Below are positions 4,619 through 21,609 of a stretch of DNA of 52,723 bases, piece by piece. Origin of the DNA: Bacillota bacterium (GTDB lineage Bacteria; Bacillota_I; Bacilli_A; Erysipelotrichales; Erysipelotrichaceae); assembly GCA_021847325.1 (NCBI GenBank), contig JAJZTY010000002.1, positions 1-52,723 of the forward strand, in the 5' to 3' direction. Under the pieces are notes generated by a model. It worked only from the letters and a program-made list of their open reading frames with translations. It ran no database searches and had not been told where the DNA came from. Numbering within the stretch: the stretch's first letter is position 1; each line of letters starts with the position of its first letter. Made by a program: the position numbers and the translations under genes.

Positions 4619-6201
4619 TGTTTACTTGGAAACGTTTTACACAGATAAGTAGTATCCTATGGATATTACTTATCTTTATCTTATTTAGTGAGACCATTAC
4701 ACTCCTATTTACTCCGAGTAATGAGAACTGGCAACACAGTGTTCAATATGTCTTTACGGATGTTAGTGTAAACACATTAATCATTGTTGGATTTTCTACT
4801 TTACTCGCAGGTTTGTTAGGTTTATTTCTCGCAAGTGCAGTCTCCCTATTTGAATTTAAAGGACGAAAACTCTTTAGTTTTCTTTTTTATCTACCCCTAG
4901 CGTTTCCACCTTATGTATTAGCTTATTTCTGGATGTATTTCTTTAGTTATACTGGAACAGTCCAAACACTATTAAGACAATTCAATATTCCCTATTCAAA
5001 TACTTGGTTTGTGATCGATCCAAAAATACTCGCAATTTTTGTATATACATCAAGTTTATTCCCTTATGTGTATATCAGTACGAAAGCTTTAATCAATCGA
5101 ACACTTGGAAATTATATTGAGAACGCGAGAGTTCTAGGATATTCCTATCCAAGAATACTCAGTCGATTAGTTTTCCCATTAAGTTTACCTGCACTATTAG
5201 GCGGTGGACTACTGGTTGCCCTCGAAGTATTAAGTGATTATGGTGTTGTGTCCTATCTAGGTATACCAAGTTTTTCAACTTCCATCGTACGAAGTTGGAT
5301 TCGTTTCCAAGACTTTGATACAGCACTTAGGTTAGCCTCTCTCTTAATGATATTTACATTAATTCTTATCTTTGTGTTTAATACATTAAGTCGTAAGATT
5401 AAGAACTTAATACCAAGTAAGGGTAGACCCCTTATTCCAAGTCAATTAAATAAAACAAATACCATTTTATTAACAACTTTCTTATCACTATTTTTGTTTA
5501 TTACCTTTGGTATTCCACTTTTACAATTAATCAATTGGAGTGTTAAAAGTCTCTCTACTATACGTATACAATCGATTCTACCTAATCTCTTAAACTCTCT
5601 TTACTTAAGTATTGGGGTCACATTAATCATCTTAATATTAAGTTTAATCTTAGCGAATCATAAACGAATTCAGAATGGAATAATAAGTTCTTTGAGTAAT
5701 AAACTGGTTCTATTGGGTTATTCAATTCCTGGATCAGTCATAGGAATACTATGTTTAGTCTTCTTTCTAAATTTAAGAAACTATATTCCATTATCACTTA
5801 ATCAAAGTGCTTTACTTCTTGTATTCGCACTCATTGTTCGATATGTAGGATTATCTTACCAAAGTATGGATCAAGGATTTAATAAAATTGGACTTAAATT
5901 CAATGAAGCATCACAAGTACTTGGACTATCCTATTTCAAGTCTATGATTAAAATCGATATCCCTTTACTCAAACCAGCGTTATTATCTGCTTTCACCATG
6001 GTATTTCTTGATATTATCAAGGAACTACCTCTCAGTTTACTCTTAAGACCGTTTAACTTTAATACGCTCGCAACCCAAGTTCATCAATATGCTAATGATG
6101 AGATGTTAGTGGAATCCGCATTTCCTACACTTATTATTCTAATTCTTTCATTTATTATGATAATGATTCTAGTAAAATTCATTCAAAAGGAGAACAACTA
6201 A
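4618..6201 (+). CDS. Ferric-iron ABC transporter permease (FbpB-like, duplicated permease)
   Basis: About 12 hydrophobic segments; two permease EAA-like motifs (ENARVLGYSYPRILSRLVFPLSLPALLGG; NEASQVLGLSYFKSMIKIDIPLLKPALLSA). Start overlaps the upstream stop (taATG). Confidence 0.85.
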   Translation: MFTWKRFTQISSILWILLIFILFSETITLLFTPSNENWQHSVQYVFTDVSVNTLIIVGFSTLLAGLLGLFLASAVSLFEFKGRKLFSFLFYLPLAFPPYVLAYFWMYFFSYTGTVQTLLRQFNIPYSNTWFVIDPKILAIFVYTSSLFPYVYISTKALINRTLGNYIENARVLGYSYPRILSRLVFPLSLPALLGGGLLVALEVLSDYGVVSYLGIPSFSTSIVRSWIRFQDFDTALRLASLLMIFTLILIFVFNTLSRKIKNLIPSKGRPLIPSQLNKTNTILLTTFLSLFLFITFGIPLLQLINWSVKSLSTIRIQSILPNLLNSLYLSIGVTLIILILSLILANHKRIQNGIISSLSNKLVLLGYSIPGSVIGILCLVFFLNLRNYIPLSLNQSALLLVFALIVRYVGLSYQSMDQGFNKIGLKFNEASQVLGLSYFKSMIKIDIPLLKPALLSAFTMVFLDIIKELPLSLLLRPFNFNTLATQVHQYANDEMLVESAFPTLIILILSFIMIMILVKFIQKENN

Positions 6202-6833
6202 TGTATCTAGATATTAAAAATCTTAGTTTCAAATATGACCAAATAAACATTATTGACTCCTTTAATATGAGTGCACCAAAAGGATCGATTACAACAATCA
6301 TTGGGGAAAGTGGCTCAGGTAAAAGTACTTTATTACGTATTCTTGCAGGTCTAAATAACAGTCAAACTGGAATATTTACATTAGATAATCAGATTGTATT
6401 TAATGAATATAAGAATGTAGAAACACATAAAAGAAAGATTGGTTTAGTCTTTCAGGACTATACTTTATTCCCGCATTTAAACATCGAACAAAATATCGCA
6501 TTTGGAATTCATTCTAAGCATAAGAAAAAAGAACGAATTCAATCCATATTAAAAATGGTTGAACTAGAAAATGACGCTCATAAATACCCTTATGAATGTT
6601 CAGGAGGTATGCAACAACGTGTTGCCTTAGCACGCGCAATTGCGAATCAACCCAAACTCTTACTCTTAGATGAACCCTTTTCAAATCTTGATCAAGACTT
6701 AAAAATACGATTAAGAGACCAATTTATCTCTTGGGCTAAACAAGAAGAGATTACCTTAATATGGGTTACACATGATATGGAAGAAGCATATGCTATATCA
6801 AATCAAGTGATAGAGTTAATTAAAAAGATCTAG
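6201..6833 (+). CDS. Iron ABC transporter ATP-binding protein
   Basis: Walker A GESGSGKST, signature SGGMQQR, Walker B LLLLDEPFSNLD; stop/start overlap with the permease. Confidence 0.9.
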   Translation: MYLDIKNLSFKYDQINIIDSFNMSAPKGSITTIIGESGSGKSTLLRILAGLNNSQTGIFTLDNQIVFNEYKNVETHKRKIGLVFQDYTLFPHLNIEQNIAFGIHSKHKKKERIQSILKMVELENDAHKYPYECSGGMQQRVALARAIANQPKLLLLDEPFSNLDQDLKIRLRDQFISWAKQEEITLIWVTHDMEEAYAISNQVIELIKKI

Positions 6834-6852
6834 AAATTTTAGATCTTTTTTA
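6824..6852. terminator. Bidirectional intrinsic terminator
   Basis: AAAAAGATCTA...TAGATCTTTTTT lies between convergent genes and overlaps the upstream stop codon. Confidence 0.8.
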
Positions 6853-7650
6853 GATATGTAAGTCTCTACGTGGGAATCGTACAAAGGCTAAAGCTAAACC
6901 TATCATTATCCATAATATACATAAACCAATATACATTGGATCAAGTGATAGATTACGAATCACCTCATCATTAGGGAAATATTTAAAGATAAGAAAAGGT
7001 CTCATCCATTCAGAATTCTCAATCATATCATATACTACAGTACCTAAGTAACTCGCTCCCATAACCGATATCATAATCATAGATGCCTTTGTATTATTCT
7101 TTAGTGCACCTGATAAACCAAAGGATACACAATAGAACGCAAACATAACAAGCACCAATCCCAACATCATTAAGAATAATTCTGTATTAATATTTTCATT
7201 CGGTGCGACTTTCGCAATAATTGCGATTGATACGGCATAATCAATACCGACAAACGCTAAGATATAAATAATCCCAGCACATAGCTTTTGAACCAATACC
7301 CAAGTCCGTGTAACTGGTTTTACCATCAAAAACTCTGCTGTTTTATCTCTTTCTTCTTTCGCAAGAATACCCGCTCCTAAAATAATCGCAAAGATTGCGC
7401 CCATAATCACAAGATAGAAATTAATCACACCATAGAAACCACTTAACGAAGTGACTTCTAGATTCACCATTCCAAACATAGCCAAAAAAGCCTTAGGCAT
7501 TTGATTAAACACATCGGTAATGGAAGTATCATTCGCATCATAGAGTGCAGTAAACTTACCCATACCTCCAGCTACCATAGCGATTATTCCTAATCCCCAA
7601 AACATTAAATACTTCCAATACTGCTTCATTTCATGAAGAAATAAGTTCAT
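6850..7650 (-). CDS. ABC-2 type transporter permease subunit
   Basis: Multiple TM segments; GILAKEERDKTAEFLMVKPVTRTWVLVQK motif typical of ABC-2 permeases. Confidence 0.8.
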   Translation of the reverse strand: MNLFLHEMKQYWKYLMFWGLGIIAMVAGGMGKFTALYDANDTSITDVFNQMPKAFLAMFGMVNLEVTSLSGFYGVINFYLVIMGAIFAIILGAGILAKEERDKTAEFLMVKPVTRTWVLVQKLCAGIIYILAFVGIDYAVSIAIIAKVAPNENINTELFLMMLGLVLVMFAFYCVSFGLSGALKNNTKASMIMISVMGASYLGTVVYDMIENSEWMRPFLIFKYFPNDEVIRNLSLDPMYIGLCILWIMIGLALAFVRFPRRDLHI

Positions 7651-7658
7651 ATTCCCTC

Positions 7659-8456
7659 CTACACCGCATGGATGTCTTTACGATCAAAATAGATAAAACT
7701 AAACACAACCATTCCAAGTAATAACGCTATTCCCCATAAGACAAACTCAAGTTCTAGTGAACCCATTAAGACAATCGAATACTTATCAAAAAATTGAAAT
7801 GGAGAGAAATAACGAATCCAAGGATCATCAAAGATCGCCTTTAACATATTCACCACAAAGAAACCAAACACTATACCTAAAGATACAGGCGCAATTGAAC
7901 GTAATCTACGGAAAGTAACACCCAGTAAAACACCAAGTGACGCAAAAATTAATTGTAGATAGAACGTACTTAAGCATACCATTAAGAACGATTGAGTTGA
8001 AAAAGGTGCTAAGGTAACTGAAGAAATTCCTAAATAAGAAGTGAGTGTTAAAAGGATATTTGTCCCAACTAAGATCACTAAAATGGACAATACTTTCGCC
8101 ATTAATATTGACGTACGTTTGACTGGTTTAGTAATAATAAACTCAGTTGTACGTAAACGTAATTCACGACCTGAAGTCCCTAAACCTAACATAATAGCTT
8201 GCGTCGACGCAATGAGTTCAATATAAATCAGTACGAAACAATAAAATCCAATCGCAGAGAAGAATTGATCGATATCAAAACCAAACGCAACTAAGACTTC
8301 CTTAGGATATCGATTAAACACTTCAATTAAATCGGCAGAATTCTGATAGAACGCTGGATACATTAACATAAAGAAATACGCAACACTACATAAAATAAGA
8401 ATCCAAATTAGATTACTTTTAAGATTACTCTTAAGTTCAAAAAGGAAGATATTCAT
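7659..8456 (-). CDS. ABC-2 type transporter permease subunit
   Basis: Multi-TM; LRLRTTEFIITKPVKRTSILMAKVLS parallels the neighbouring permease. Confidence 0.8.
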   Translation of the reverse strand: MNIFLFELKSNLKSNLIWILILCSVAYFFMLMYPAFYQNSADLIEVFNRYPKEVLVAFGFDIDQFFSAIGFYCFVLIYIELIASTQAIMLGLGTSGRELRLRTTEFIITKPVKRTSILMAKVLSILVILVGTNILLTLTSYLGISSVTLAPFSTQSFLMVCLSTFYLQLIFASLGVLLGVTFRRLRSIAPVSLGIVFGFFVVNMLKAIFDDPWIRYFSPFQFFDKYSIVLMGSLELEFVLWGIALLLGMVVFSFIYFDRKDIHAV

Positions 8457-8458
8457 AC

Positions 8459-9343
8459 TTACTCCTTCACATAATAATGCATGAAAATCTCTTCTAAATC
8501 AGGTTCAGTTAAATTAATACGCAATAAATTAAGCTGAGATAATTTATGCATCAAATCATTCACATTACCGTTATATAAGAAGGAAGTATTCCCATCGACA
8601 ACTGTATAGTTAATCATATTATTATCTTTAAATGATTCAGATAAAGGTTCTTCAGTGTCTACCGAAACTTTAAGATACGTATTTTCTTTTAATGAAGCCA
8701 TTGTATCTATACGAACAATCTTACCTTCTTTAATAATCGCAACTCGATCACATAGTTTCTGCACTTCACTTAAAATATGAGATGAGAATAAAACCGTTGC
8801 GCCTCTCTCATTTTCTTCTTTGAGAATATCGAAGAAAGTTTGTTGCATAAGAGGATCTAAACCCCCTGTTGGTTCATCTAATATGATGAGTTTAGGAGAG
8901 TGTAGTAATCCTTGGATAATCCCTACTTTCTTCTTATTTCCATACGATAAGTTATCGATTTTCATGTTTAGATCGACATCTAATCGAGCTGCTAGTTCTT
9001 TTATTTTAGCTTTACAATCTTTATTGTAGAAAGATGCGGAATAGTTCAATAAATCTTTAACCTTCATATTGTCATAATAAAATACTTCAGAAGGTAGATA
9101 ACCTATCTCTTTATGAATCTCTTGATAATCTTTTTGACAATCTAATCCAAAAATAGTTGCACTACCTGAACTGGGTTTAATGAGTGAGAGTAATAAACGA
9201 ATGGTTGTGGATTTACCTGCCCCATTAGGTCCTATAAATCCAAATATTTCGCCTTCTTCTATGGATAAATCCACATCAATAATCCCTCTGGATTTACCAT
9301 AATACTTCGTTAACTTCTTTGTTTCAATGATTGCCATAGACAT
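8459..9343 (-). CDS. ABC transporter ATP-binding protein (exporter)
   Basis: Walker A GPNGAGKST, Walker B LIILDEPTGGLDPL; adjacent to two ABC-2 permeases. Start could be 9337. Confidence 0.9.
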   Translation of the reverse strand: MSMAIIETKKLTKYYGKSRGIIDVDLSIEEGEIFGFIGPNGAGKSTTIRLLLSLIKPSSGSATIFGLDCQKDYQEIHKEIGYLPSEVFYYDNMKVKDLLNYSASFYNKDCKAKIKELAARLDVDLNMKIDNLSYGNKKKVGIIQGLLHSPKLIILDEPTGGLDPLMQQTFFDILKEENERGATVLFSSHILSEVQKLCDRVAIIKEGKIVRIDTMASLKENTYLKVSVDTEEPLSESFKDNNMINYTVVDGNTSFLYNGNVNDLMHKLSQLNLLRINLTEPDLEEIFMHYYVKE

Positions 9344-9411
9344 CTCCTATTTAACGCTATTTTCATCATATGCCTGTAATGTTTATCCTACAAGTAAAAA
9401 AGATATAAAAA

Positions 9412-9434
9412 AGTGACGAAGATAAATCTTCGCC
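9412..9434 (-). terminator. Terminator-like hairpin at the left end of the IS
   Basis: Minus strand GGCGAAGA-TTTA-TCTTCGTC followed by ACTTTTTT. Confidence 0.5.
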
Positions 9435-9462
9435 ATCTTGAAAAATAATGAAAACATAATCC

Positions 9463-10764
9463 ATGATTTATTCATCGTCCTCACGCAAAGGGAATTCAGT
9501 TATACTTTGGGTGAGGACTTTATTGATGATCTCAGATAACCTGGCGATCCCCCTCGCCAAAGTCGCGACACATTCTTTCTCAAAGATGGTGGATCCTTCG
9601 AAGTTGTCCATTCAAAGAATTTTCGTTGCCTATTGGACGTCGTTTCTGCTGGACCCTGAAGTGGTTCATCGTGGTTTACGCCCTGTGATCGTCAAAGAAG
9701 TTCAAAAAATGATGGCCTGCGGAACCCTCGACGCCGGTTTCAAAATCTATGAATGCCCAAACTGTAAGAAAACGCACGTCATCTGTTATACCTGTAAAAG
9801 TCGCTTCTGTAATGCCTGTGGCGTCAAGTATGCCCATCTTCGTGCCTACTCTATTTCAGCCTCGACGCTCGATGTCCCGCATCGCCATGTCGTTTTTACC
9901 ATCGATCACTGCTTACGGGATTATTTCAGAAGAGATCGTGATCTCCTCCATGTCTTGTTTGAAGCCGTCAAGGATACCCTCTTCTATACGTTTGATCGGA
10001 TGAACGGAAAAAAACATACCTTCAAACCTGGCTTCATTCTCACGCTCCATACCTTCGGTCGAGCGCTGAATTGGAACCCCCACATTCACTGTCTCCTTAC
10101 CGAAGGCGGGATGAATGAAGACCAGATCTATAAACCCATCTCCTACATCAACTATGAGGTGCTTCGCAAATCCTTCATGAAATGTCTGTTGGACAAGATG
10201 AAGGCCTTCTATGCCAATCAACCCGCTGTGCTGAGTGAGCTCAAGCAACGGATCAATCAAATTTATCGCGACTATACCGATGGTTTTTATGTCCATGCGC
10301 CGGCGATGGAACAGAAGAATGGCAAGGATGCGGTTACGGCATACATCATCCGCTATGCTGGTCGACCCGTCATGGCTCAAAGTCGGATCCTTGCGCTTGA
10401 TCGTTCGAATCGGATGATCACCTACTTCTATGAAGACCATAAAACAGAGGAGCGCATCGAAGTGACGGAGCCTGTCTTCACGTTCATGAAGAAGCTCATC
10501 GTTCACATCCCAGAATCTCAATTCAAGATGATTCGCTACTATGGGCTTTATGCCAGCTGTCAAACACAACACAAGCCGACTGTGAAAGCCCTGCTTAAAT
10601 CATGTCTAAGCACGCTTCGTAAACACCTTCCCTATCGGCAAAGTCTGATTTCAACCTTTGACACCGACCCTTTGCTTTGTGATTGTGGTCATTATATGGA
10701 ATATATTGGTTTCTGGGTTCCCCCCTCGAAAAGAAATGGAGGTTTTGCTTATGACTCATCCTAA
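9463..10764 (+). CDS. tnpA: IS91 family (HUH/Y2) transposase
   Basis: N-terminal zinc ribbon (CPNCKKTHVICYTCKSRFCNACG), HUH motif WNPHIHCLLTEGG, and YxxxY (AYIIRYAGRP). An alternative start is ATG 9586. Confidence 0.92.
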   Translation: MIYSSSSRKGNSVILWVRTLLMISDNLAIPLAKVATHSFSKMVDPSKLSIQRIFVAYWTSFLLDPEVVHRGLRPVIVKEVQKMMACGTLDAGFKIYECPNCKKTHVICYTCKSRFCNACGVKYAHLRAYSISASTLDVPHRHVVFTIDHCLRDYFRRDRDLLHVLFEAVKDTLFYTFDRMNGKKHTFKPGFILTLHTFGRALNWNPHIHCLLTEGGMNEDQIYKPISYINYEVLRKSFMKCLLDKMKAFYANQPAVLSELKQRINQIYRDYTDGFYVHAPAMEQKNGKDAVTAYIIRYAGRPVMAQSRILALDRSNRMITYFYEDHKTEERIEVTEPVFTFMKKLIVHIPESQFKMIRYYGLYASCQTQHKPTVKALLKSCLSTLRKHLPYRQSLISTFDTDPLLCDCGHYMEYIGFWVPPSKRNGGFAYDSS

Positions 10765-10954
10765 GCATACACATGATGATTCCGCTGGAGATCGCTTGAT
10801 TGACATGAAATGCACGCATTGTGGCTATGAAGAAAAAATGCCTGCTTGGTGTTATGGCGAAGAAGCGGACTACCTAATCGATATTGGGAATCCGGAACCC
10901 CAGCGTTGGCAATGTCCTAAATGTTATAACGAAACGCTTTGTCGAAAACCATAG
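10751..10954 (+). CDS. Small zinc-ribbon protein encoded within the IS (67 aa)
   Basis: ATG 10751 preceded by GGAGG, overlapping the end of tnpA. Contains CTHC...CPKC knuckles (MTHPKHTHDDSAGDRLIDMKCTHCGYEEKMPAWCYGEEADYLIDIGNPEPQRWQCPKCYNETLCRKP). Confidence 0.6.
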   Translation: MTHPKHTHDDSAGDRLIDMKCTHCGYEEKMPAWCYGEEADYLIDIGNPEPQRWQCPKCYNETLCRKP

Positions 10955-11067
10955 CGCTTATATACATCGCCTTCATCTTTCAATCTCATTTACTTTTTGA
11001 GTGCGTTCACATCAGCGCTTCTTTTAATTTGTTTTCTGAGATTTAGAGAACTTTCCTATAAGATAAA

Positions 11068-11086
11068 AAAAGGCATTGATATGCCC
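11068..11086 (-). terminator. Intrinsic terminator of the CHR gene pair, abutting the IS right end
   Basis: Minus strand GGCAT-ATCA-ATGCC followed by TTTTTTT. Confidence 0.65.
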
Positions 11087-11087
11087 A

Positions 11088-11630
11088 TTAAACGATTGGT
11101 AAGATTAAACCCAATACTGCAGCAATTAAAATCAAAAGGATGGGTGTGATCTTTGTTTTAAACAAGATACCGAGTACAACAAAAAATAATCCGATCGACA
11201 CCCATTCAATTTTAAATGGTTCAAATTTGAATAATGTCACACTGACCATTTCATAGGCCGCATAGGCAATTAAAGCTGCGATCGTAGGCCGTATCCCATA
11301 AAAGATTTTTGTTATTAATGGATGATTTTTGAACTTCGTCAAGATGTTCGCAACCACCAACATAAATAATACACCCGTCGCCATGACAGCAATGCTTGCA
11401 AGGAATCCTCCAAAGATACCGCCTGCTTTGAAGCCAGCATAAGTGGCCATATTGATGCCAATCGGTCCTGGAGTTGATTCAGAAATGGCAATCATATCAA
11501 TCAAAGTTGCTTTATCAAACCAAGGATAACGCTCTGCTAAATTATAGAGAAAAGGTAAAGTTGCTAAACCTCCACCAACAGAGAATGTCCCAATGATGAA
11601 GAATTCAAATATCAGAATGAGATAGATCAT
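11088..11630 (-). CDS. Short-chain CHR family transporter subunit (chromate transporter domain), second of pair
   Basis: EFFIIGTFSVGGGLATLPFL...ISESTPGPIGINMATYAGFKAGG is the CHR domain signature; 180 aa. Confidence 0.88.
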   Translation of the reverse strand: MIYLILIFEFFIIGTFSVGGGLATLPFLYNLAERYPWFDKATLIDMIAISESTPGPIGINMATYAGFKAGGIFGGFLASIAVMATGVLFMLVVANILTKFKNHPLITKIFYGIRPTIAALIAYAAYEMVSVTLFKFEPFKIEWVSIGLFFVVLGILFKTKITPILLILIAAVLGLILPIV

Positions 11631-12169
11631 GCTTTGACCTCCGCTTTGGGTTTAAAGTAAATACCCACAACAGCTGAGAAGAGGATTAAAAATATCGGAT
11701 TGACGTGCACAAAAGTAATCAACACAAATGAGATTCCAAATAGAACCACCCCAATCCAATCGATGATGCCTTTTTTACCTAAAGTGTAAGCAGTATTGAC
11801 AATCAAAGCCGCAACCACGATTCGTATCATTTTGAACACATTCAATACTTGTGGGTATTGCATGAAACTTTCCAAGAAAAGCGCAATAATCGTAATGATC
11901 AGAATCGAAGGTAATGCTGATGCAAAACCAGCAACTAAGGCACCTTTCTTCTTGGCAACTTGATAACCTATTAAAGCAGAGGTATTGATGGCAATGATGC
12001 CCATACTGACTTGAGCTACGCCATAGTAATCCAGGAGTTGTTCCTGCGTGATCCAGTCCTTCTTTTCAATGATTTCTTTCTTCACGATCGGCAACATCGC
12101 ATAGCCACCACCAAAAGTGAATAGACCCACCCTAAAGAAGGTAACGAAGATTTCAACGAGTTGTTTCAT
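11627..12169 (-). CDS. Short-chain CHR family transporter subunit (chromate transporter domain), first of pair
   Basis: MKQLVEIFVTFFRVGLFTFGGGYAMLPIVKKEI...YGVAQVSMGIIAINTSALIGYQVAKKKG; 180 aa from ATG 12169; 4-bp overlap with the next CHR gene. Confidence 0.88.
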   Translation of the reverse strand: MKQLVEIFVTFFRVGLFTFGGGYAMLPIVKKEIIEKKDWITQEQLLDYYGVAQVSMGIIAINTSALIGYQVAKKKGALVAGFASALPSILIITIIALFLESFMQYPQVLNVFKMIRIVVAALIVNTAYTLGKKGIIDWIGVVLFGISFVLITFVHVNPIFLILFSAVVGIYFKPKAEVKA

Positions 12170-12179
12170 ACATCTCCTT

Positions 12180-13790
12180 CTAGTAACATGCGATATTGCT
12201 ATCGGTACGAGCCTCACAGCCGCCAACCAAAGTTCCGTTATCAAGGCGTACAATGATTTGACCACGTCCAAATAGGACTGAATTGTAGGTCATCTCAACT
12301 TGATGACCCTTATTGACCAATTGCTTAATAATTGCCGGATCGAAATTATGTTCAACTAAGAATTTCTTACCTTCCATCCATTGCCAGCGTGGCGCATCCA
12401 AGGCACTTTGTGGATTTAATTTGAAGTCAATCATATTCATCGCGACTTGGACATGACCTTGTGGTTGCATATAACCCCCCATGACACCAAATGGACCTAC
12501 AGCTTTGCCATCTTTCAGTAAGAATCCTGGAATGATGGTATGATACGTCTTCTTTCCACCTTCCAGCGCATTCACGTGACTTGCATCAAGACTGAAATCA
12601 CTGCCACGATTCTGTAAAGCGATTCCATCCACCACCATACCACTACCAAAGCCCATATAGTTGCTTTGAATGTAGGAGACCATATTCCCTTCCCCATCCG
12701 CTGTACACAGATAAACGGTACCGGATTGTGGAGGTTTCTTAGGTTCATACATTTTTGCAAAATCGTCAATTTCTCTTGATCTCTCTTCACCAAATTGAGG
12801 AGTAAGTAGATCTTGATAGTTCACACGCATTTTTGTAGGATCACTTACATGTTCTTTCGCATCCATAAAAGCCATTTTCATCGCTTCGAATTGCTTATGA
12901 TACGTATCCACATGTTCCTTATTATTAAAAGCAAAGTTGCGCAAAATATTCAACGCCAACAAGGCTGTGATGCCTTGTCCATTGGGCGGAATCTCACACA
13001 CATCATAACCACGATAATTAACAGATATGGGATCGACCCAGGATACGTCATAAGTACTCAAATCTTCTTTTGTAAAGAAACCTCCAAATTGATTGGACGA
13101 CTCAACGATACGATCCGCAATATCACCTTTGTAAAACGCTTCACTGTCAGATTCACCAATCAAACGCAAGCTCTTTGCGTGATGTGGTAATTTGACGATA
13201 TCACCAAATTCAGGCGTTTTCCCATCAAAGGAAAACGTATCAAACCACGCCTTAAAGGAAGGATCATCGCCCGCAATTTCTTTATAACGCTGATGTGCGT
13301 TTTTCCACATTTGAGCCAATACAGCCCCAACCGGAAAACCGTCTTCTGCGTAACGAATCGCTGGTTCAAGGCATTCAAGTAAACTTAGTTTCCCAAAACG
13401 CTTGTTTAAAGCTGACCAAGCTTTTGGAACACCAGGAACTGTCACAGGTGTCCATCCAAAAACAGGCATCTTATCAACACTTCCATGTTTATCCATAACA
13501 GCTTGGATATTGATGTTTTTAGGAGCTGGCCCTGAGCCATTCAAACCATGAAGTTTATCCTTCATCCATACGAGGGCAAATGCATCCCCCCCGATGCCAT
13601 TCGCTGTAGGTTCTACTACCGTCAAAGCGGCTGCTGTCGCAATCGCTGCATCTACGGCATTACCCCCTTTACGTAAAATTTCAAGTCCAGCTGCAGACGC
13701 GTGAGATGAACCCGTTGCAACCATGCCATTCTTTGCAACGACAACATTGCGTGTACTGGTATAAGGTAAATGTTGATATTCTAGTTTCAT
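12180..13790 (-). CDS. Gamma-glutamyltransferase family protein, no signal peptide (YwrD-like cytosolic type)
   Basis: VVAKNGMVATGSSHASAAGLEILRKGGNAVDAAIATAAALTVVEPTANGIGGDAF and MGGYMQPQGHVQVAMNMIDF motifs of GGT. Confidence 0.92.
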   Translation of the reverse strand: MKLEYQHLPYTSTRNVVVAKNGMVATGSSHASAAGLEILRKGGNAVDAAIATAAALTVVEPTANGIGGDAFALVWMKDKLHGLNGSGPAPKNINIQAVMDKHGSVDKMPVFGWTPVTVPGVPKAWSALNKRFGKLSLLECLEPAIRYAEDGFPVGAVLAQMWKNAHQRYKEIAGDDPSFKAWFDTFSFDGKTPEFGDIVKLPHHAKSLRLIGESDSEAFYKGDIADRIVESSNQFGGFFTKEDLSTYDVSWVDPISVNYRGYDVCEIPPNGQGITALLALNILRNFAFNNKEHVDTYHKQFEAMKMAFMDAKEHVSDPTKMRVNYQDLLTPQFGEERSREIDDFAKMYEPKKPPQSGTVYLCTADGEGNMVSYIQSNYMGFGSGMVVDGIALQNRGSDFSLDASHVNALEGGKKTYHTIIPGFLLKDGKAVGPFGVMGGYMQPQGHVQVAMNMIDFKLNPQSALDAPRWQWMEGKKFLVEHNFDPAIIKQLVNKGHQVEMTYNSVLFGRGQIIVRLDNGTLVGGCEARTDSNIACY

Positions 13791-15400
13791 GCTTTTACGT
13801 TCTCCTCAAATAAGTGGCATGCGACAAAATGATTTGGTTTTGCTTCATGATAAATTGGTTTCTCAGTTTTACAAACATCCATCGCAAATTTACAACGTGT
13901 ATGGAATGGACATCCCTTCGGTTGATTGATTGGACTTGGAACTTCGCCCTGTATGGTATCACGTTTTATTTCATCTTGTATCCTTGGACGAGGTACAGCT
14001 TCCAAGAGTGATTGGGTGTACGGATGTAGAGGTTCATTAAACAAGGTCTTACTGTCTGCGAGCTCACAAGCACTGCCAAGATACATGACAAGAATCCGAT
14101 CACAGAAATGTTTAACGACACCTAAGTCGTGCGTAATGAAAAAATATGTCAATTTAAACTCATCTGAAAGATTATTTAAGAGCTGTAAGATCTGAGCTTG
14201 AACGGAGACATCCAAAGCGGATACTGCCTCATCTAAAACTACAAAATTCGTATTCAATGCAATCGCACGTGCGATTCCAACACGTTGTTTTTGACCACCA
14301 CTTAAAGCATGTGGATACGTGTCATAATACTCAGCTTTCAAACCCACTTTCTCGAGCAAAGCAATCGTCTTTTCCTGACGCACTTCTTTCGAATATTTTG
14401 TATTGATTTTGAAGACTTCTTCAATGGCACTTCCGATAGATTGACGCGGGTCCAATGAGGCTGCAGGATCTTGGAAAATCATCTGCATTTCTCTACGAAT
14501 GGGTTTCATCTCAGAAGAAGATAATTTCGCCAAATTCAAACCAGTTTCATAATTCCCATCCAGCTTCTGTTGGTACTTAGGATCAAGGGTTTGTTCGGTA
14601 ATGGGAAGATAATCTTTACCCTTATAGTTCTGATACGTTTGCTTCTTGATGGTTTTTACCTGCAATCGATATTCATCCAGTTTTGCATCCAATTTAACCA
14701 ATTGTTGCTTCAGCTCTTCTGCTTCCTTTAGCTTGCTGCGATTTGCAGTTTGTTTCTCTACCTCAATCCATTTCTTTTGCGTCTTCGCATCAAGAACTTT
14801 TCGTTCTTTTAAAAGCTGATGAACTTTTTCAGAGATTTTTTGCGCCTCCGCATATTGTTTTTGAATCACTTCAAGGTGTGAACTCAAAATTAAAGAGCCA
14901 ATCGTGCGACTTCCCTCACGTAACTGCCGTGAAGCATTTTTTCTAAGCTCTTTCGAATCATACTGCAGTTTGTCAATCTTTCGACTCAACTGATCATAGC
15001 GTTTTGTGTCTTTTTCACTGCCCAAGACATCTACGCTATCTCTTTGAAGAAATAGATTCTCAATTTCGCGATCTATTTTTAGAGATGCTTGATAAAAGTC
15101 TCTAGCCTTCTTCTGATAAGTTACTAAATTTTGAATCTCTTTGTTCATGTAATCCGGATTCACATCTTCAACAGATTTCCCGTGGTAAACCGTAGATCCG
15201 CTTGTTTGCTTATGTAATTGTAAAAGAACTCGACCTAAGGTTGATTTACCACAACCAGATTCACCAACCACACCGAATTTTTCTCCTTCATAAATTTTGA
15301 AACTGATATCATTCAGTGCCTTAAGTTGAACATTCCGTTTAATTGGAAAGATTTTCTTCAGCTTGCGTACTTCTAGAAGCACTTTACGTTCTTCACTCAT
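13787..15400 (-). CDS. Oligopeptide ABC transporter ATP-binding protein (OppF/DppF-like) with a large internal insertion
   Basis: Walker A GESGCGKST, MIFQDPAASLDPR, SGGQKQRVGIARA, oligopeptide C-terminal CPFHTRC. About 210 extra residues between Walker A and the Q-loop. Confidence 0.88.
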   Translation of the reverse strand: MSEERKVLLEVRKLKKIFPIKRNVQLKALNDISFKIYEGEKFGVVGESGCGKSTLGRVLLQLHKQTSGSTVYHGKSVEDVNPDYMNKEIQNLVTYQKKARDFYQASLKIDREIENLFLQRDSVDVLGSEKDTKRYDQLSRKIDKLQYDSKELRKNASRQLREGSRTIGSLILSSHLEVIQKQYAEAQKISEKVHQLLKERKVLDAKTQKKWIEVEKQTANRSKLKEAEELKQQLVKLDAKLDEYRLQVKTIKKQTYQNYKGKDYLPITEQTLDPKYQQKLDGNYETGLNLAKLSSSEMKPIRREMQMIFQDPAASLDPRQSIGSAIEEVFKINTKYSKEVRQEKTIALLEKVGLKAEYYDTYPHALSGGQKQRVGIARAIALNTNFVVLDEAVSALDVSVQAQILQLLNNLSDEFKLTYFFITHDLGVVKHFCDRILVMYLGSACELADSKTLFNEPLHPYTQSLLEAVPRPRIQDEIKRDTIQGEVPSPINQPKGCPFHTRCKFAMDVCKTEKPIYHEAKPNHFVACHLFEENVKA

Positions 15401-16373
15401 GTGCATATTCCTCTTCTACCTTAAAACAAGCAACTCGATGATGATTGTCATATTCCAATTCACTGGGCACTTCACTACGACACCGATCCATCGCAAATGG
15501 ACAACGAGGATGAAAGCGACAGCCTTTGATATCATCCGTCAACAAAGGGAATGTGCCTGGTATCGGTTTGATTTCAAAGTGATCACTGTCCACATTGGGG
15601 ACAGCATTCATTAATCCAATCGTATACGGATGCTTAGGGTTGTTGAATAGATCCTCAACAGATGCTTCTTCTACTTTACGACCAGCATACAATACAATGA
15701 CACGATCGGCGATTTCAGCCACGACACCTAAGTCGTGGGTAATAAAAAGAATCCCTGCGTCAATGTCCTTCTTTAATTTGTTCATTAAATTTAAAACTTG
15801 TTTTTGGATGGTCACATCCAATGCCGTTGTGGGTTCATCCGCAATCAACAACTTCGGTTTGACAGAGATGACCATGGCAATCATGACACGTTGACGCAAT
15901 CCTCCACTTAATTGAAATGGATATTGCTTTAAACGTTCTTTTGGATTGGATATACCAACAACATTAAGATAATGAATGGCGATCTCAGTCGCATTCTTTT
16001 TATCCACATTACGATGTAACATAATGTTTTCCGTCAACTGATAACCAATCGTTAAGAGTGGATTCAATGCCGTCATGGGTTCTTGAAAAATCATTCCCAT
16101 GTCACGCCCTCTAAATGCATTGCGTTCTTTTTTATTTAATTTTGTAAGTTCTATCTCATTGAGTTTGATAGAACCTGAAACCACTTCTCCATTATTGGGT
16201 AATAAATCCATGATGGCCAAAGTGGTGACACTTTTCCCACAACCACTCTCACCTACGATGCACACTGTTTCGCCTTGGTTCACGTAGAAAGATAAATCAC
16301 GGATGACCGGATAGGGTTTTCCGGCAATCGTAAAGTGGGTCACGAGTTGATTGATGTCAAGTACTTTGGCCAT
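15393..16373 (-). CDS. Oligopeptide ABC transporter ATP-binding protein (OppD/DppD-like)
   Basis: GESGCGKSV, GMIFQEPMTALNPL, SGGLRQRVMIAMV, GCRFHPRCPFAMDRC. Confidence 0.92.
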   Translation of the reverse strand: MAKVLDINQLVTHFTIAGKPYPVIRDLSFYVNQGETVCIVGESGCGKSVTTLAIMDLLPNNGEVVSGSIKLNEIELTKLNKKERNAFRGRDMGMIFQEPMTALNPLLTIGYQLTENIMLHRNVDKKNATEIAIHYLNVVGISNPKERLKQYPFQLSGGLRQRVMIAMVISVKPKLLIADEPTTALDVTIQKQVLNLMNKLKKDIDAGILFITHDLGVVAEIADRVIVLYAGRKVEEASVEDLFNNPKHPYTIGLMNAVPNVDSDHFEIKPIPGTFPLLTDDIKGCRFHPRCPFAMDRCRSEVPSELEYDNHHRVACFKVEEEYAHE

Positions 16374-16391
16374 ATGAATTCTCCTTTTATG

Positions 16392-17933
16392 TTATTCTGT
16401 TACACTCATTTGATTGACATAGAATAACGCACCTGGATCGAGTTCCACGTTCGTCAATCGCTTGTTTGCACCATAGATCAAGAATGTGTTATACAACGGC
16501 ACGACAGCCGCATCTTCCAATATCATTTCATTCGCTGCTTCCAAAGCTTGAATACGGGTATCCAAATCAATGGTGGTCTTGCTTTGGAGCACTAAAGCTT
16601 CAAACTCAGGATTTGCATATTTGATACGATTTGCACCCGCACTTGTGAAGTTTGGTTCAAGCAATTCAGAACCATCACCTGTGACATTTGCCCAAGTAAA
16701 GATACCAATGGCATAGCGATCATCTTTCGTAGCTTCTGTCAGATAAGTCGCAAATTCTTGTGCATCAATCACAACATTGGTGAACCCTACATCTTTCAGA
16801 TTACTTTGAATCATTTCAGCCAACGCTACCAAAGTTGGGTTGTTTTGGGTTAAGAAGACAATTTCTTCATCCCCACATCCACATGCCGCAACCAATTCTT
16901 TCGCTTTTTCAGGATCAAATGGATAACCGAAGTTCTCTGCTTCTTCGGTATAGCCAAGAACACGTGGACCTACAAGACTTCGTGAGAAGACCGCATAGCC
17001 ATCTAGAGATTCAACCCATGCTTCACGATCGATCGCATAAGCAATAGCTTGTCGAACACTCTTGTCGTAGGTGATTTCATTGGATGAAACCGTGGTACGC
17101 ATGCCTAAGTATGTGATTCCTGCACCTTCTTTGGTGTACAGGTTCACATTACTCATCGCTTCGACGCGACCGATTTGATCTACAGGAATCGTTGCGATAA
17201 AATCAGCTTCGCCTGTTTCCAAACGTGCAATGGCTGTCGCAGGTTCGGTAACGATGGTGATCACTAAGTCTTTGATATTAGATAGTTCTCCCCAGTAGTC
17301 TTCATTGCGTGTTAAGACAACCTCACTTCCAGATGTATAACTGACAAATTTATAAGGACCTGTTCCAACTGGATTGATCATCAAGTCTTGTGCGGTATCC
17401 GCTTGTTCGGAGATGATCGCGGAGTTCGTATGTGCCAGTTTCGCTAATAAAACACCATCTGGATACTTCAATTTCAACTCAACTGTATAAGGATCAACGA
17501 CCGTTACCGTTTCAATCGAAGCCGCGATTGATGCACGTGCTGATCCATATTCAGGATTCTTAATGCTTTCCAAGGTGTACTTGACATCATCAGCAGTCAG
17601 TTCTTTGCCATCATGGAATTTAACACCTTCATTTAAAGTAATCGTACAAGTTAAACCATCTTCTGAACAAACAGGGAAATCCTTAGCAAGTAATGGATAA
17701 TAACCAGAACCATCCATTTCACGTTTATACAAGGACTCATAGATTTGCGAGTTGATAGATGACGATGCGGAGTCATTGGTTTTCAATGGTGAAAAGCCAG
17801 ATGGAATCGCTGTGATGATCACATTGATCTTCGCATCTTCAACAGCCACTGGTGCTACAGGGGCATCACTCCCACATGCAGTGAGCACTAAAGCAAAGAC
17901 TAAACTTAGAATTAATTTTTTGATTGTCTTCAT
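16392..17933 (-). CDS. Family 5 (peptide/nickel) extracellular solute-binding lipoprotein
   Basis: Lipobox LVLTAC; WVKFHDGKELTADDVKYTLESI-type SBP_bac_5 motif and VGTGPYKFVSY. Confidence 0.9.
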   Translation of the reverse strand: MKTIKKLILSLVFALVLTACGSDAPVAPVAVEDAKINVIITAIPSGFSPLKTNDSASSSINSQIYESLYKREMDGSGYYPLLAKDFPVCSEDGLTCTITLNEGVKFHDGKELTADDVKYTLESIKNPEYGSARASIAASIETVTVVDPYTVELKLKYPDGVLLAKLAHTNSAIISEQADTAQDLMINPVGTGPYKFVSYTSGSEVVLTRNEDYWGELSNIKDLVITIVTEPATAIARLETGEADFIATIPVDQIGRVEAMSNVNLYTKEGAGITYLGMRTTVSSNEITYDKSVRQAIAYAIDREAWVESLDGYAVFSRSLVGPRVLGYTEEAENFGYPFDPEKAKELVAACGCGDEEIVFLTQNNPTLVALAEMIQSNLKDVGFTNVVIDAQEFATYLTEATKDDRYAIGIFTWANVTGDGSELLEPNFTSAGANRIKYANPEFEALVLQSKTTIDLDTRIQALEAANEMILEDAAVVPLYNTFLIYGANKRLTNVELDPGALFYVNQMSVTE

Positions 17934-17945
17934 TTCTTTCTCCTT

Positions 17946-18824
17946 TTAAGCATTTTCTTTTAAACTCGGATCCAAGACATCCCTCAGCTTGTCTCCGACG
18001 ATGTTGAAGCTGATGACGGTTATCATCACCACAACCCCTGGGATAATTATTAAACTTGGTTGCTTCCACATATAATCGCGGGCTGTCGCGATCATTGCCC
18101 CCCACTCCGGATTGGGCGGTGGCGAACCAAGACCAAGGAAACTTAAGGTCGCAATCGACATGATCGAACTTGCGAGACGCATCGTCGATACGACGATGAT
18201 GACTGGTAAACTATTTTTTAAAATGTGAAGAAATAGAATTCTGAAATCACTCGCTCCCAAGGAGCGTACAGCCGTGACGTAGTCTTCTTCTTTAAGTGAC
18301 AAAACCTTCCCTCGCACCATCCGTGCAAAGCCCGGAATTGACCATACACTGATTGCAATCATTGCATTTGTTGTACTCGCTCCCAACATGGCCACAATCA
18401 ACATGGCCAAGAGGATACCTGGAAAAGTAAAGAGAAGATCCATGAAGCGCATGATGATGTTATCTAATTGTTTATAATAGCCCGCTAACAAACCTAGTGT
18501 TACCCCAAAAATCAAACCAATGAAGGTAGATACAAAGCCTACCCATAACGAGATACGTCCGCCATAAAGGAGTCTCGTCAAGACATCTCGTCCCAAATGA
18601 TCGGTTCCTAAGTAATACCCCTCTACATATCCTTCACTCGCCCAGAAACCAGGTGCTAGTTTTAAGGCGATATTGGTTTCTAGAGGATCATGCGGTGTCA
18701 AGTAAGGAGCAATCAGCACAATTAATATCTCTAATATCAGAAAGAAGAATGCAACGGTTGCCAGTTTATTTTTAAGAAGGTTTGTAAATGCTTTGACCAA
18801 CCAGTTTTCTTTACGTTTTCGCAT
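17946..18824 (-). CDS. Peptide ABC transporter permease (OppC/DppC-like)
   Basis: LGTDHLGRDVLTRLLYGGRISLWVGF and AVRSLGASDFRILFLHILKNSLPVIIV. Confidence 0.93.
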   Translation of the reverse strand: MRKRKENWLVKAFTNLLKNKLATVAFFFLILEILIVLIAPYLTPHDPLETNIALKLAPGFWASEGYVEGYYLGTDHLGRDVLTRLLYGGRISLWVGFVSTFIGLIFGVTLGLLAGYYKQLDNIIMRFMDLLFTFPGILLAMLIVAMLGASTTNAMIAISVWSIPGFARMVRGKVLSLKEEDYVTAVRSLGASDFRILFLHILKNSLPVIIVVSTMRLASSIMSIATLSFLGLGSPPPNPEWGAMIATARDYMWKQPSLIIIPGVVVMITVISFNIVGDKLRDVLDPSLKENA

Positions 18825-18833
18825 ATGCCACCT

Positions 18834-19778
18834 CTACTCGTACGATATCCGTGGATCTACAACCACATACAACAAATCTACCAAGAGATTCACAAAAACA
18901 AAGAAGAATGCAATGACCAACACCGTACTCTGCACAGCAGGATAATTACGCATATTTATTGATGTGAGTAAGTAGGTACCAATACCATTGATTACAAAGA
19001 CTTGTTCCGTGACAATTGCTCCACCCAATAAACCACCGAAGCTGGTCCCAAAGATCGTCAGAATCGGAATCAAAGCGTTACGTAAGGCATGTATCACAAC
19101 AATCGTGCTGTACTTCAGCCCTTTGGAACGTGCTGTTCGGATGTAATCTGACTGCATGACATCCAACATAGCACTTCTGCCCACGCGCATGAAACTTGCC
19201 GCAACGCTCATTCCTAAGGCTATTGAAGGTAGGATGGCTTGTTTGAAACCCAAACTTGTCCAGAAAGGTTCTGTCATACCACCTGTAGGCAACCAACGAA
19301 GCACAACACTGAATAAGAGAATCAACATCGAACCTAACCAGAAGTTCGGGACCGATATCCCTGCTAAGGATGTGGTTGAAATCAAATTATCCAACCATGA
19401 ATCCTTTTTGATGGCAGATAGGATTCCTGCAGGAATTCCAATGATCACCGCCACCAACATCGATGTAAACGCTAGATTCAGAGTATGCGGTAAGCGAACG
19501 ATGATTTCATTCAGTACCGGTTGTCGTGTCACCAAAGATGTACCGAGATTCCCTTGAATTAGATTCGTGAAATAGATCCAATATTGCACTAGGAAAGGTT
19601 TATCCAAACCTAAAAAAACGCGTACACGCTCAATGTCATCCGGTGTCGCATTCGCTCCAGCAACTAACTCAGCTGGATCTCCAGGCGCTAAATAGAGACT
19701 CGCAAAAATGATGAACGAGATCCCAATTAACAGAATGACAATGTTGCCTATACGCTTCAGAACATACCTTAACATAAT
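18834..19778 (-). CDS. Peptide ABC transporter permease (OppB/DppB-like)
   Basis: MLRYVLKRIGNIVILLIGISFIIF...LAPGDPAELVAG...TARSKGLKYSTIVVIHALRNALIPILTIFG. Confidence 0.93.
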   Translation of the reverse strand: MMLRYVLKRIGNIVILLIGISFIIFASLYLAPGDPAELVAGANATPDDIERVRVFLGLDKPFLVQYWIYFTNLIQGNLGTSLVTRQPVLNEIIVRLPHTLNLAFTSMLVAVIIGIPAGILSAIKKDSWLDNLISTTSLAGISVPNFWLGSMLILLFSVVLRWLPTGGMTEPFWTSLGFKQAILPSIALGMSVAASFMRVGRSAMLDVMQSDYIRTARSKGLKYSTIVVIHALRNALIPILTIFGTSFGGLLGGAIVTEQVFVINGIGTYLLTSINMRNYPAVQSTVLVIAFFFVFVNLLVDLLYVVVDPRISYE

Positions 19779-19799
19779 GCCCACCTTTACTATTGCACT

Positions 19800-19828
19800 A
19801 TTATGTTCAATTTTTTCATAACTGTCAA
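19800..19828 (-). promoter_or_regulatory. Strong sigma-A-type promoter for the opp-ggt-CHR operon
   Basis: Minus strand TTGACA (19823-19828), 17-nt spacer, CATAAT (19800-19805). Confidence 0.7.
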
Positions 19829-19981
19829 TAACATTTTCACAAATATTACACTATTTACATACACTTACATTAAGTTGTTACATTTCTTCCATTTATATGT
19901 CTCTATCTGTTTTAGAAACAAAGCTAAAAAAGTGACGAAGATAAATCTTCGCCATCTTGAAAAATAATGAAAACATAATCC

Positions 19982-21283
19982 ATGATTTATTCATCGTCCT
20001 CACGCAAAGGGAATTCAGTTATACTTTGGGTGAGGACTTTATTGATGATCTCAGATAACCTGGCGATCCCCCTCGCCAAAGTCGCGACACATTCTTTCTC
20101 AAAGATGGTGGATCCTTCGAAGTTGTCCATTCAAAGAATTTTCGTTGCCTATTGGACGTCGTTTCTGCTGGACCCTGAAGTGGTTCATCGTGGTTTACGC
20201 CCTGTGATCGTCAAAGAAGTTCAAAAAATGATGGCCTGCGGAACCCTCGACGCCGGTTTCAAAATCTATGAATGCCCAAACTGTAAGAAAACGCACGTCA
20301 TCTGTTATACCTGTAAAAGTCGCTTCTGTAATGCCTGTGGCGTCAAGTATGCCCATCTTCGTGCCTACTCTATTTCAGCCTCGACGCTCGATGTCCCGCA
20401 TCGCCATGTCGTTTTTACCATCGATCACTGCTTACGGGATTATTTCAGAAGAGATCGTGATCTCCTCCATGTCTTGTTTGAAGCCGTCAAGGATACCCTC
20501 TTCTATACGTTTGATCGGATGAACGGAAAAAAACATACCTTCAAACCTGGCTTCATTCTCACGCTCCATACCTTCGGTCGAGCGCTGAATTGGAACCCCC
20601 ACATTCACTGTCTCCTTACCGAAGGCGGGATGAATGAAGACCAGATCTATAAACCCATCTCCTACATCAACTATGAGGTGCTTCGCAAATCCTTCATGAA
20701 ATGTCTGTTGGACAAGATGAAGGCCTTCTATGCCAATCAACCCGCTGTGCTGAGTGAGCTCAAGCAACGGATCAATCAAATTTATCGCGACTATACCGAT
20801 GGTTTTTATGTCCATGCGCCGGCGATGGAACAGAAGAATGGCAAGGATGCGGTTACGGCATACATCATCCGCTATGCTGGTCGACCCGTCATGGCTCAAA
20901 GTCGGATCCTTGCGCTTGATCGTTCGAATCGGATGATCACCTACTTCTATGAAGACCATAAAACAGAGGAGCGCATCGAAGTGACGGAGCCTGTCTTCAC
21001 GTTCATGAAGAAGCTCATCGTTCACATCCCAGAATCTCAATTCAAGATGATTCGCTACTATGGGCTTTATGCCAGCTGTCAAACACAACACAAGCCGACT
21101 GTGAAAGCCCTGCTTAAATCATGTCTAAGCACGCTTCGTAAACACCTTCCCTATCGGCAAAGTCTGATTTCAACCTTTGACACCGACCCTTTGCTTTGTG
21201 ATTGTGGTCATTATATGGAATATATTGGTTTCTGGGTTCCCCCCTCGAAAAGAAATGGAGGTTTTGCTTATGACTCATCCTAA
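19982..21283 (+). CDS. tnpA: IS91 family (HUH/Y2) transposase
   Basis: Translation identical to 9463-10764. Confidence 0.92.
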   Translation: MIYSSSSRKGNSVILWVRTLLMISDNLAIPLAKVATHSFSKMVDPSKLSIQRIFVAYWTSFLLDPEVVHRGLRPVIVKEVQKMMACGTLDAGFKIYECPNCKKTHVICYTCKSRFCNACGVKYAHLRAYSISASTLDVPHRHVVFTIDHCLRDYFRRDRDLLHVLFEAVKDTLFYTFDRMNGKKHTFKPGFILTLHTFGRALNWNPHIHCLLTEGGMNEDQIYKPISYINYEVLRKSFMKCLLDKMKAFYANQPAVLSELKQRINQIYRDYTDGFYVHAPAMEQKNGKDAVTAYIIRYAGRPVMAQSRILALDRSNRMITYFYEDHKTEERIEVTEPVFTFMKKLIVHIPESQFKMIRYYGLYASCQTQHKPTVKALLKSCLSTLRKHLPYRQSLISTFDTDPLLCDCGHYMEYIGFWVPPSKRNGGFAYDSS

Positions 21284-21473
21284 GCATACACATGATGATT
21301 CCGCTGGAGATCGCTTGATTGACATGAAATGCACGCATTGTGGCTATGAAGAAAAAATGCCTGCTTGGTGTTATGGCGAAGAAGCGGACTACCTAATCGA
21401 TATTGGGAATCCGGAACCCCAGCGTTGGCAATGTCCTAAATGTTATAACGAAACGCTTTGTCGAAAACCATAG
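21270..21473 (+). CDS. Small zinc-ribbon protein encoded within the IS (67 aa)
   Basis: Identical to 10751-10954. Confidence 0.6.
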   Translation: MTHPKHTHDDSAGDRLIDMKCTHCGYEEKMPAWCYGEEADYLIDIGNPEPQRWQCPKCYNETLCRKP

Positions 21474-21583
21474 CGCTTATATACATCGCCTTCATCTTTC
21501 AATCTCATTTACTTTTTGAGTGCGTTCACATCAGCGCTTCTTTTAATTTGTTTTCTGAGATTTAGAGAACTTTCCTATAAGAT

Positions 21584-21609
21584 AAAAAATGTCACAAATT
21601 GTGACATTA
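21584..21609 (-). terminator. Intrinsic terminator of murQ, abutting the IS right end
   Basis: Minus strand ATGTCACA-ATT-TGTGACAT followed by TTTTTT. Confidence 0.75.

Follow-up and report, generated by a model that had tools for sequence, protein, structure and literature searches.

An IS91-family element of Bacilli that probably inserts at intrinsic terminators, and a foreign operon lying between two of its copies

The insertion sequences IS91, IS801 and IS1294/ISSbo1 have an HUH/Y2 transposase, a hairpin near the left end, and a left terminus that resembles the target. Their transposition starts at ori, 3' of the transposase gene, and ends at ter, 5' of it, with read-through capturing the DNA adjacent to ter; this rule, on which an earlier note on the DNA described here had relied, is published for IS801 and IS91 (PMC3189936, PMC5714925). 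One-ended transposition and the carriage of adjacent DNA have been published for the IS91 family (PMC3189936). In IS801, one-ended transposition stops at left-end-like sequences and may carry adjacent upstream DNA, and the left-end tetranucleotide, GAAC, is itself among the target tetranucleotides, of which GAAC and CAAG are listed (PMC3189936). The stretch considered here, referred to as the window, is the 52,723 nt of contig JAJZTY010000002.1 (GenBank assembly GCA_021847325.1, Erysipelotrichaceae), in which two copies of an IS91-family element lie on either side of an opp-ggt-chr operon. This element shares the transposase type, the left-end hairpin and the resemblance of left terminus to target, and may share the one-ended transposition, but differs in that it, and the clade to which it belongs, would target an A-tract plus hairpin, that is an intrinsic terminator, and not a tetranucleotide such as GAAC or CAAG.

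Other systems are similar in part. The ISCR elements also have a rolling-circle HUH transposase, with oriIS and terIS, and adjacent genes are thought to be transposed (PMC13393415), but the window transposase matches an ISCR model weakly and partially, at 53 bits against a cut-off of 925. Helitrons (Helraiser) have a related HUH mechanism, in which a terminal hairpin is the transposition terminator and read-through captures flanking DNA (PMC4778049), although these are eukaryotic and have no terminator target. Composite transposons likewise have cargo between two direct IS copies that is foreign to the host genome; here, however, the cargo is bounded by terminators, the unit is one operon, and the unit may be mobile. 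Group IIC introns, which insert after intrinsic terminators (PMC4424553), are a parallel for the terminator targeting, but as RNA-based retroelements their machinery is unrelated to the DNA rolling-circle transposase of the window. A literature search, covering few subscription journals and with ISfinder outside it, found no earlier account of insertion in terminators by a member of the IS91 family or by another DNA transposon, and a terminator-targeting IS91 branch was apparently undescribed before.

It is probable, in our judgement, that there is a terminator-targeting clade of IS91-family elements in the Bacilli and that a foreign operon bracketed by two such elements was transferred from a donor related to G100, another species of the same genus, into the murQ operon terminator of the assembly holding the window (G000). 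The two copies are in direct orientation and match at 100% over 1665 nt (9406–11070 and 19925–21589), as the earlier note had stated, and only these two copies of the repeat, and no other fragments of the IS, were found in the assembly. While 1665 nt is the length of the repeat, it is not that of the element, since the A-tract at the right end is part of the target. When multi-copy elements are compared, and for copy 1 the copies in G100 as well, the element is placed, plus or minus a base, at about 9406–11064 (copy 1) and 19925–21583 (copy 2), both on the plus strand. The A-run on the right had been considered as part of the IS and was rejected, the bases before it being variable between copies of multi-copy elements.

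Each copy encodes a Y2/HUH transposase on the plus strand (9463–10764 in copy 1, where it is 433 aa with HIH and YIIRYAGR motifs, and 19982–21283 in copy 2), which matches the NCBIfam model transpos_IS91 at 255 bits (cut-off 125), as well as Pfam Y2_Tnp and the IS91 zinc-binding domain Zn_Tnp_IS91. Its nearest named relatives are from the Erysipelotrichaceae. There are no terminal inverted repeats and, in the multi-copy alignment, the ori and ter ends are distinct, the left being an A-tract and hairpin and the right a TTCYTA motif; the conserved right-end motif is CAATTTCCTATACGT in IS1294-like elements and GAACTTTCCTATAAGAT here. A small open reading frame (ORF) of about 67 aa, with CxxC pairs and GGAGG ahead of it, was seen by eye to overlap the 3' end of the transposase gene (10751–10954, and the equivalent of copy 2), and could possibly encode a second, zinc-ribbon protein of the IS.

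What the earlier reader overlooked is that both copies are inserted in Rho-independent terminators, the right (ori) end being against the A-tract and hairpin of a convergent operon. Copy 1 ends on the right in ...AGAACTTTCCTATAAGAT, after which come an A-tract and GGCATTGATATGCCC (11065–11086, minus strand), the terminator of the cargo's own chr operon. Because this terminator is uninterrupted in G100, its hairpin is target and not element. Copy 2, or the whole unit, adjoins the terminator of the murQ operon, an A-tract and the hairpin TGTCACAAATTGTGACA (21584–21608, minus strand), and by eye a hairpin is present beside murQ without an IS in both G100 and genome G140. By comparison, the hairpin and T-tract remain intact beside the IS. 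A nearly identical IS is present in G100, where four right junctions are at contig ends and three of these have a clear hairpin. The contigs of G100 terminate in 125-nt pieces of the window IS, which points to the collapse of four or more copies there.

Insertion in terminators fixes the orientation of the copies and accounts for the coincidence of the cargo ends with operon boundaries; since the terminators at the two boundaries had the same orientation, the copies would be direct. On the left, the edge of the cargo is its own terminator, directly against copy 1. On the right, the edge is upstream of the best promoter-like match in the region, TTGACA-17-CATAAT (19828–19800, minus strand, a consensus match only), which is within the cargo; this edge corresponds roughly in position to the terminator of the gene before the operon in G100. 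The cargo thus consists of a single transcription unit, with its terminator at one end and the other end a short way upstream of the promoter.

The association extends beyond the window. Relatives of the transposase were gathered at three overlapping levels, the family (273 genomes), the order (316), and the phylum (392), and right ends were located with a 16-nt weight matrix that ends before the flank, and so is blind to it, and that was derived from six elements, namely that of the window and five multi-copy ones in other genomes. In the transposase clade of the class Bacilli, 50/58 distinct insertions (86%) have, within 16 nt after the right end, a stem of 6 or more, compared to 97/553 (17.5%) of host A5-runs (Fisher 3e-26) and 60/328 further downstream in the same loci. 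For stems of at least 7 the counts are 49/58 insertions and 65/553 host A5-runs. Folding energies give the same answer, with medians of -10.7 and -5.0 kcal/mol (Mann-Whitney 4e-15). An earlier, stricter metric, anchored on the first A4-run, gave 38/53 and under-counted through mis-parsing of A-tracts such as AAAATAAAA; the offset-based stem metric was adopted after this failure, so the choice was not fully blind, while the comparison of folding energies needs no such choice. In 37/56 insertions the end of a convergent gene lies no more than 160 nt from the right end, as compared with 73/600 random positions.

Nearly identical copies within the one- or two-contig genomes G315, G113, and G467 each have a different hairpin after them. 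It might be argued from the presence of a hairpin at most right ends that this is a variable terminal structure of the element rather than host DNA, but with hairpins that differ between otherwise identical copies, and a chr hairpin that occurs in G100 with no IS, this is hardly credible.

The left flanks do not have the pattern, a stem of at least 7 being present in 2/25. In IS1294-like controls, taken from enterobacterial plasmids other than the Shigella ones among the IS91 hits, it is mainly CAAG, GAAC, GCAC, or CCAG that adjoins the element, with such a stem in 1/10; a tetranucleotide target of the GAAC/CAAG type is mostly present for these controls and is not seen for the Bacilli clade. 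In the transposase tree, 29 Bacilli sequences form one clade apart from the IS1294-like and Vibrio sequences (support 97/94), the IS91 of Vibrio mediterranei being used in the tree only, its ends being undefined. The Bacilli transposases of G293 and G289 fall outside this clade, and the program warns of long branches meeting there. Terminators are benign sites at which surviving copies would be enriched, so that the association could result from survivorship, or arise because DNA that is intergenic, A/T-rich, or single-stranded is passively preferred. This is very unlikely, given that the orientation, and the point on the A-tract at which the right end lies, are fixed to a few nucleotides, that hairpins are lacking in left flanks and infrequent at host A5-runs, and that IS1294-like elements lack the pattern.

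The left end of the element resembles its target. In all well-defined subgroups the IS starts with an A-rich tract followed by a hairpin, the left ends being TAAAAAAGTGACGAAGATAAATCTTCG in the window, TAAAAAAAGGACAAAAATAAATTTTGTCC in G315, and GAACAAAAGTGAATAAATTCAC in G467. That of copy 1 (9406–9435), TAAAAAA plus hairpin, is constant in 7 copies of the window IS and is terminator-like on the minus strand. Indeed, an A-tract followed by a hairpin is, on the opposite strand, a Rho-independent terminator, and a terminator scan calls the left ends of both copies terminator-like (9435–9414 and 19954–19933). IS1294-like elements have GAAC at the start, with a hairpin, and use GAAC or CAAG as insertion sites, whereas the left terminus in the window clade starts with an A-tract and not GAAC, with an intermediate, GAACAAAA, in G467. 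From the sequences of these ends, the Bacilli clade appears to have kept the correspondence between left end and target, with the tetranucleotide swapped for an A-tract plus hairpin. The right (ori-side) end joins the distal edge of the terminator T-tract, giving the order IS right end, A-tract, hairpin of the convergent gene, and the structure that the transposase recognises is probably the same for ter as for the target.

The cargo is foreign to its present host, in agreement with the acquisition proposed in the earlier note. G100 has the same operon over 8.84 kb at 89% nucleotide identity, with an IS on neither side, while identity for the rest of the window, in the parts that match, is about 68–72%. 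The cargo proteins are 94–98% identical to those of G100, and fourfold-degenerate sites 49–73%; for murQ, mupG, glmU, and purB the proteins are 61–82% identical and the fourfold-degenerate sites 24–39%, which is near saturation. A contrast in GC content is also present, but it is smaller than the hand-counted 48% and 42% against 27% and 30% of the earlier note, the cargo being 41.1%, the IS 44.5%, and the flanks 34.2–34.3%. The DNA around the operon in G100 is 43–44% GC, and the cargo therefore fits G100 in composition and not the present host. There, the operon sits between CoADR, as we call a gene fusion of pyridine-nucleotide-disulfide-oxidoreductase, rhodanese, TusA, and DsrE, and msrB. 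The CoADR-msrB interval of the host (G000:C111, 32% GC) has two unrelated ORFs and no operon. The remaining 11% divergence makes it probable that the operon came directly from a relative of G100 and not from G100.

The earlier note had held that finding the operon at this locus in relatives, with no IS copies, would speak against acquisition as a unit, and the murQ loci of G100 and G140 are without the operon. At 6850–9343 in the window, the stretch from the ABC ATPase gene (6201–6833) to murQ is variable in the genus; between these genes are an ABC exporter operon and the composite in the window, and a different 1.1–1.4 kb, approximately, in G100 and G140.

The operon could have come by ordinary homologous or conjugative transfer, with IS copies later entering the terminators at both its edges. 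Terminator targeting by itself predicts direct copies at operon edges, and recently inserted copies would be identical. We nevertheless regard this as possible but unlikely, as this site is without the operon in both G100 and G140, and homology to G100 ends at or near both IS junctions, leaving no donor flank, which is as expected of an IS-bounded transfer.

The assembly has the character of a metagenome-assembled genome (MAG), of 1.80 Mb in 169 contigs, 81% complete and with 3% contamination. A host with a single IS in the murQ terminator and a G100-like species with IS-operon-IS might thus have been joined through the identical 1665-nt repeats. The contamination, the composition and divergence of the cargo, which fit another species, the identity of the copies, and the breaking of contigs by the same IS in G100 all agree with such a chimera. 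However, two mis-joins are required, there are no further IS fragments in the assembly, and the 27 kb surrounding the operon in G100 matches only host-type orthologs (67–75%) in the bin, except for two stretches of about 115 nt at 82–88%. We consider a chimera improbable, more so than a separate arrival of operon and IS copies. G000:C111 and G000:C114 each carry orthologs of the msrB region of G100, at 70% and 72% nucleotide identity, which suggests paralogy or a mixture of strains in the bin. Subject to the caveat of a chimera, the window holds a genuine IS91-bounded operon of foreign origin.

For the transfer of a bracketed operon, it is proposed that copies in the G100-related donor would have entered the terminators of the opp-ggt-chr operon and of the preceding gene, leaving a single transcription unit between them. 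Entry into the murQ terminator of the host would have followed, either of the bracketed unit or, if one-ended transposition came to a stop at the chr terminator, of the operon with copy 2. In the one-ended case, copy 1 would have been inserted before or later. Three routes fit equally well, these being transposition of the whole copy 1-cargo-copy 2 unit, one-ended transposition, and the entry by recombination of a circle of IS and cargo into an IS already present. The movement of 12.2 kb as a single unit, as put forward in the earlier note, is plausible.

Several observations weigh against the proposed targeting and transfer. No genome with the exact empty join of 9405 to 21590 was found, G100 and G140 having other DNA beside murQ, and the 12-kb unit was not found in a second genome. 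The source is a MAG, which makes a chimera possible. The resemblance of left end and target is one of sequence only. Eight of the 58 insertions have no stem of 6, one of them being copy 1 in the window, with a stem of 5, and another a misplaced right end, and two of the four copies in G448 have no clear hairpin. The insertions of one clade also share the history of its transposase, though each is a separate event.

The 8.85-kb cargo has the gene content given in the earlier note and is entirely on the minus strand, in the order oppB-oppC-oppA-oppD-oppF-ggt-chr-chr. It begins with two permeases, oppB-like (18834–19784) and oppC-like (17946–18824), followed by an oppA-like family 5 solute-binding lipoprotein (16392–17933), two Opp/Dpp-type ATPases, oppD-like (15393–16373) and oppF-like (13787–15406), a gamma-glutamyltranspeptidase with no evident signal peptide (12180–13790), and a pair of proteins of the CHR (chromate transporter) family (first 11627–12271, second 11088–11630). 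The combination of an Opp/Gsi-type importer, a gamma-glutamyltranspeptidase that has no evident signal peptide, and a CHR pair suggests, from the gene families, a probable role in taking up gamma-glutamyl peptides or glutathione for cleavage in the cytoplasm. Consistent with this, the operon has sulfur-redox neighbours in G100. The ggt and opp genes are found in similar order, at 66–67% nucleotide identity, in other genera of the family (G114, G111, G024, G010, G057, G090), which would make the operon an old, recurring module.

In the one-contig genome G579 (C1:1274000-1291999, at about 4965–12115), two direct copies of the same clade flank 4.0 kb of minus-strand ORFs, encoding a beta-lactamase-family hydrolase and two proteins without a Pfam match. 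The first copy adjoins a hairpin at the end of the cargo gene group and the second a hairpin behind dnaN, making this a possible second case of an IS-bracketed unit. PADLOC gave no match for the window transposase, one CHR protein, or two of the G579 cargo proteins.

A terminator is a safe, abundant, and sequence-diverse landing site, and the host terminator is left intact. It may be, and this is put forward tentatively, that a rolling-circle transposase has replaced a 4-nt target with a structural one, an A-tract and DNA hairpin, which is likewise present at the ter end of its own element, so that intrinsic terminators act both as landing sites and as surrogate ter. If this is true, read-through transposition would stop at terminators, packaging operons in full, together with their promoter and terminator. 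Since transcription units are bounded by terminators, complete operons would be bracketed by two insertions, or by a single insertion and read-through. This would make the IS an operon mover, and would provide a testable account of how whole nutrient-uptake operons pass between related Bacilli, as well as a bacterial model for the question of how DNA structure, as opposed to sequence, is read by an HUH transposase.

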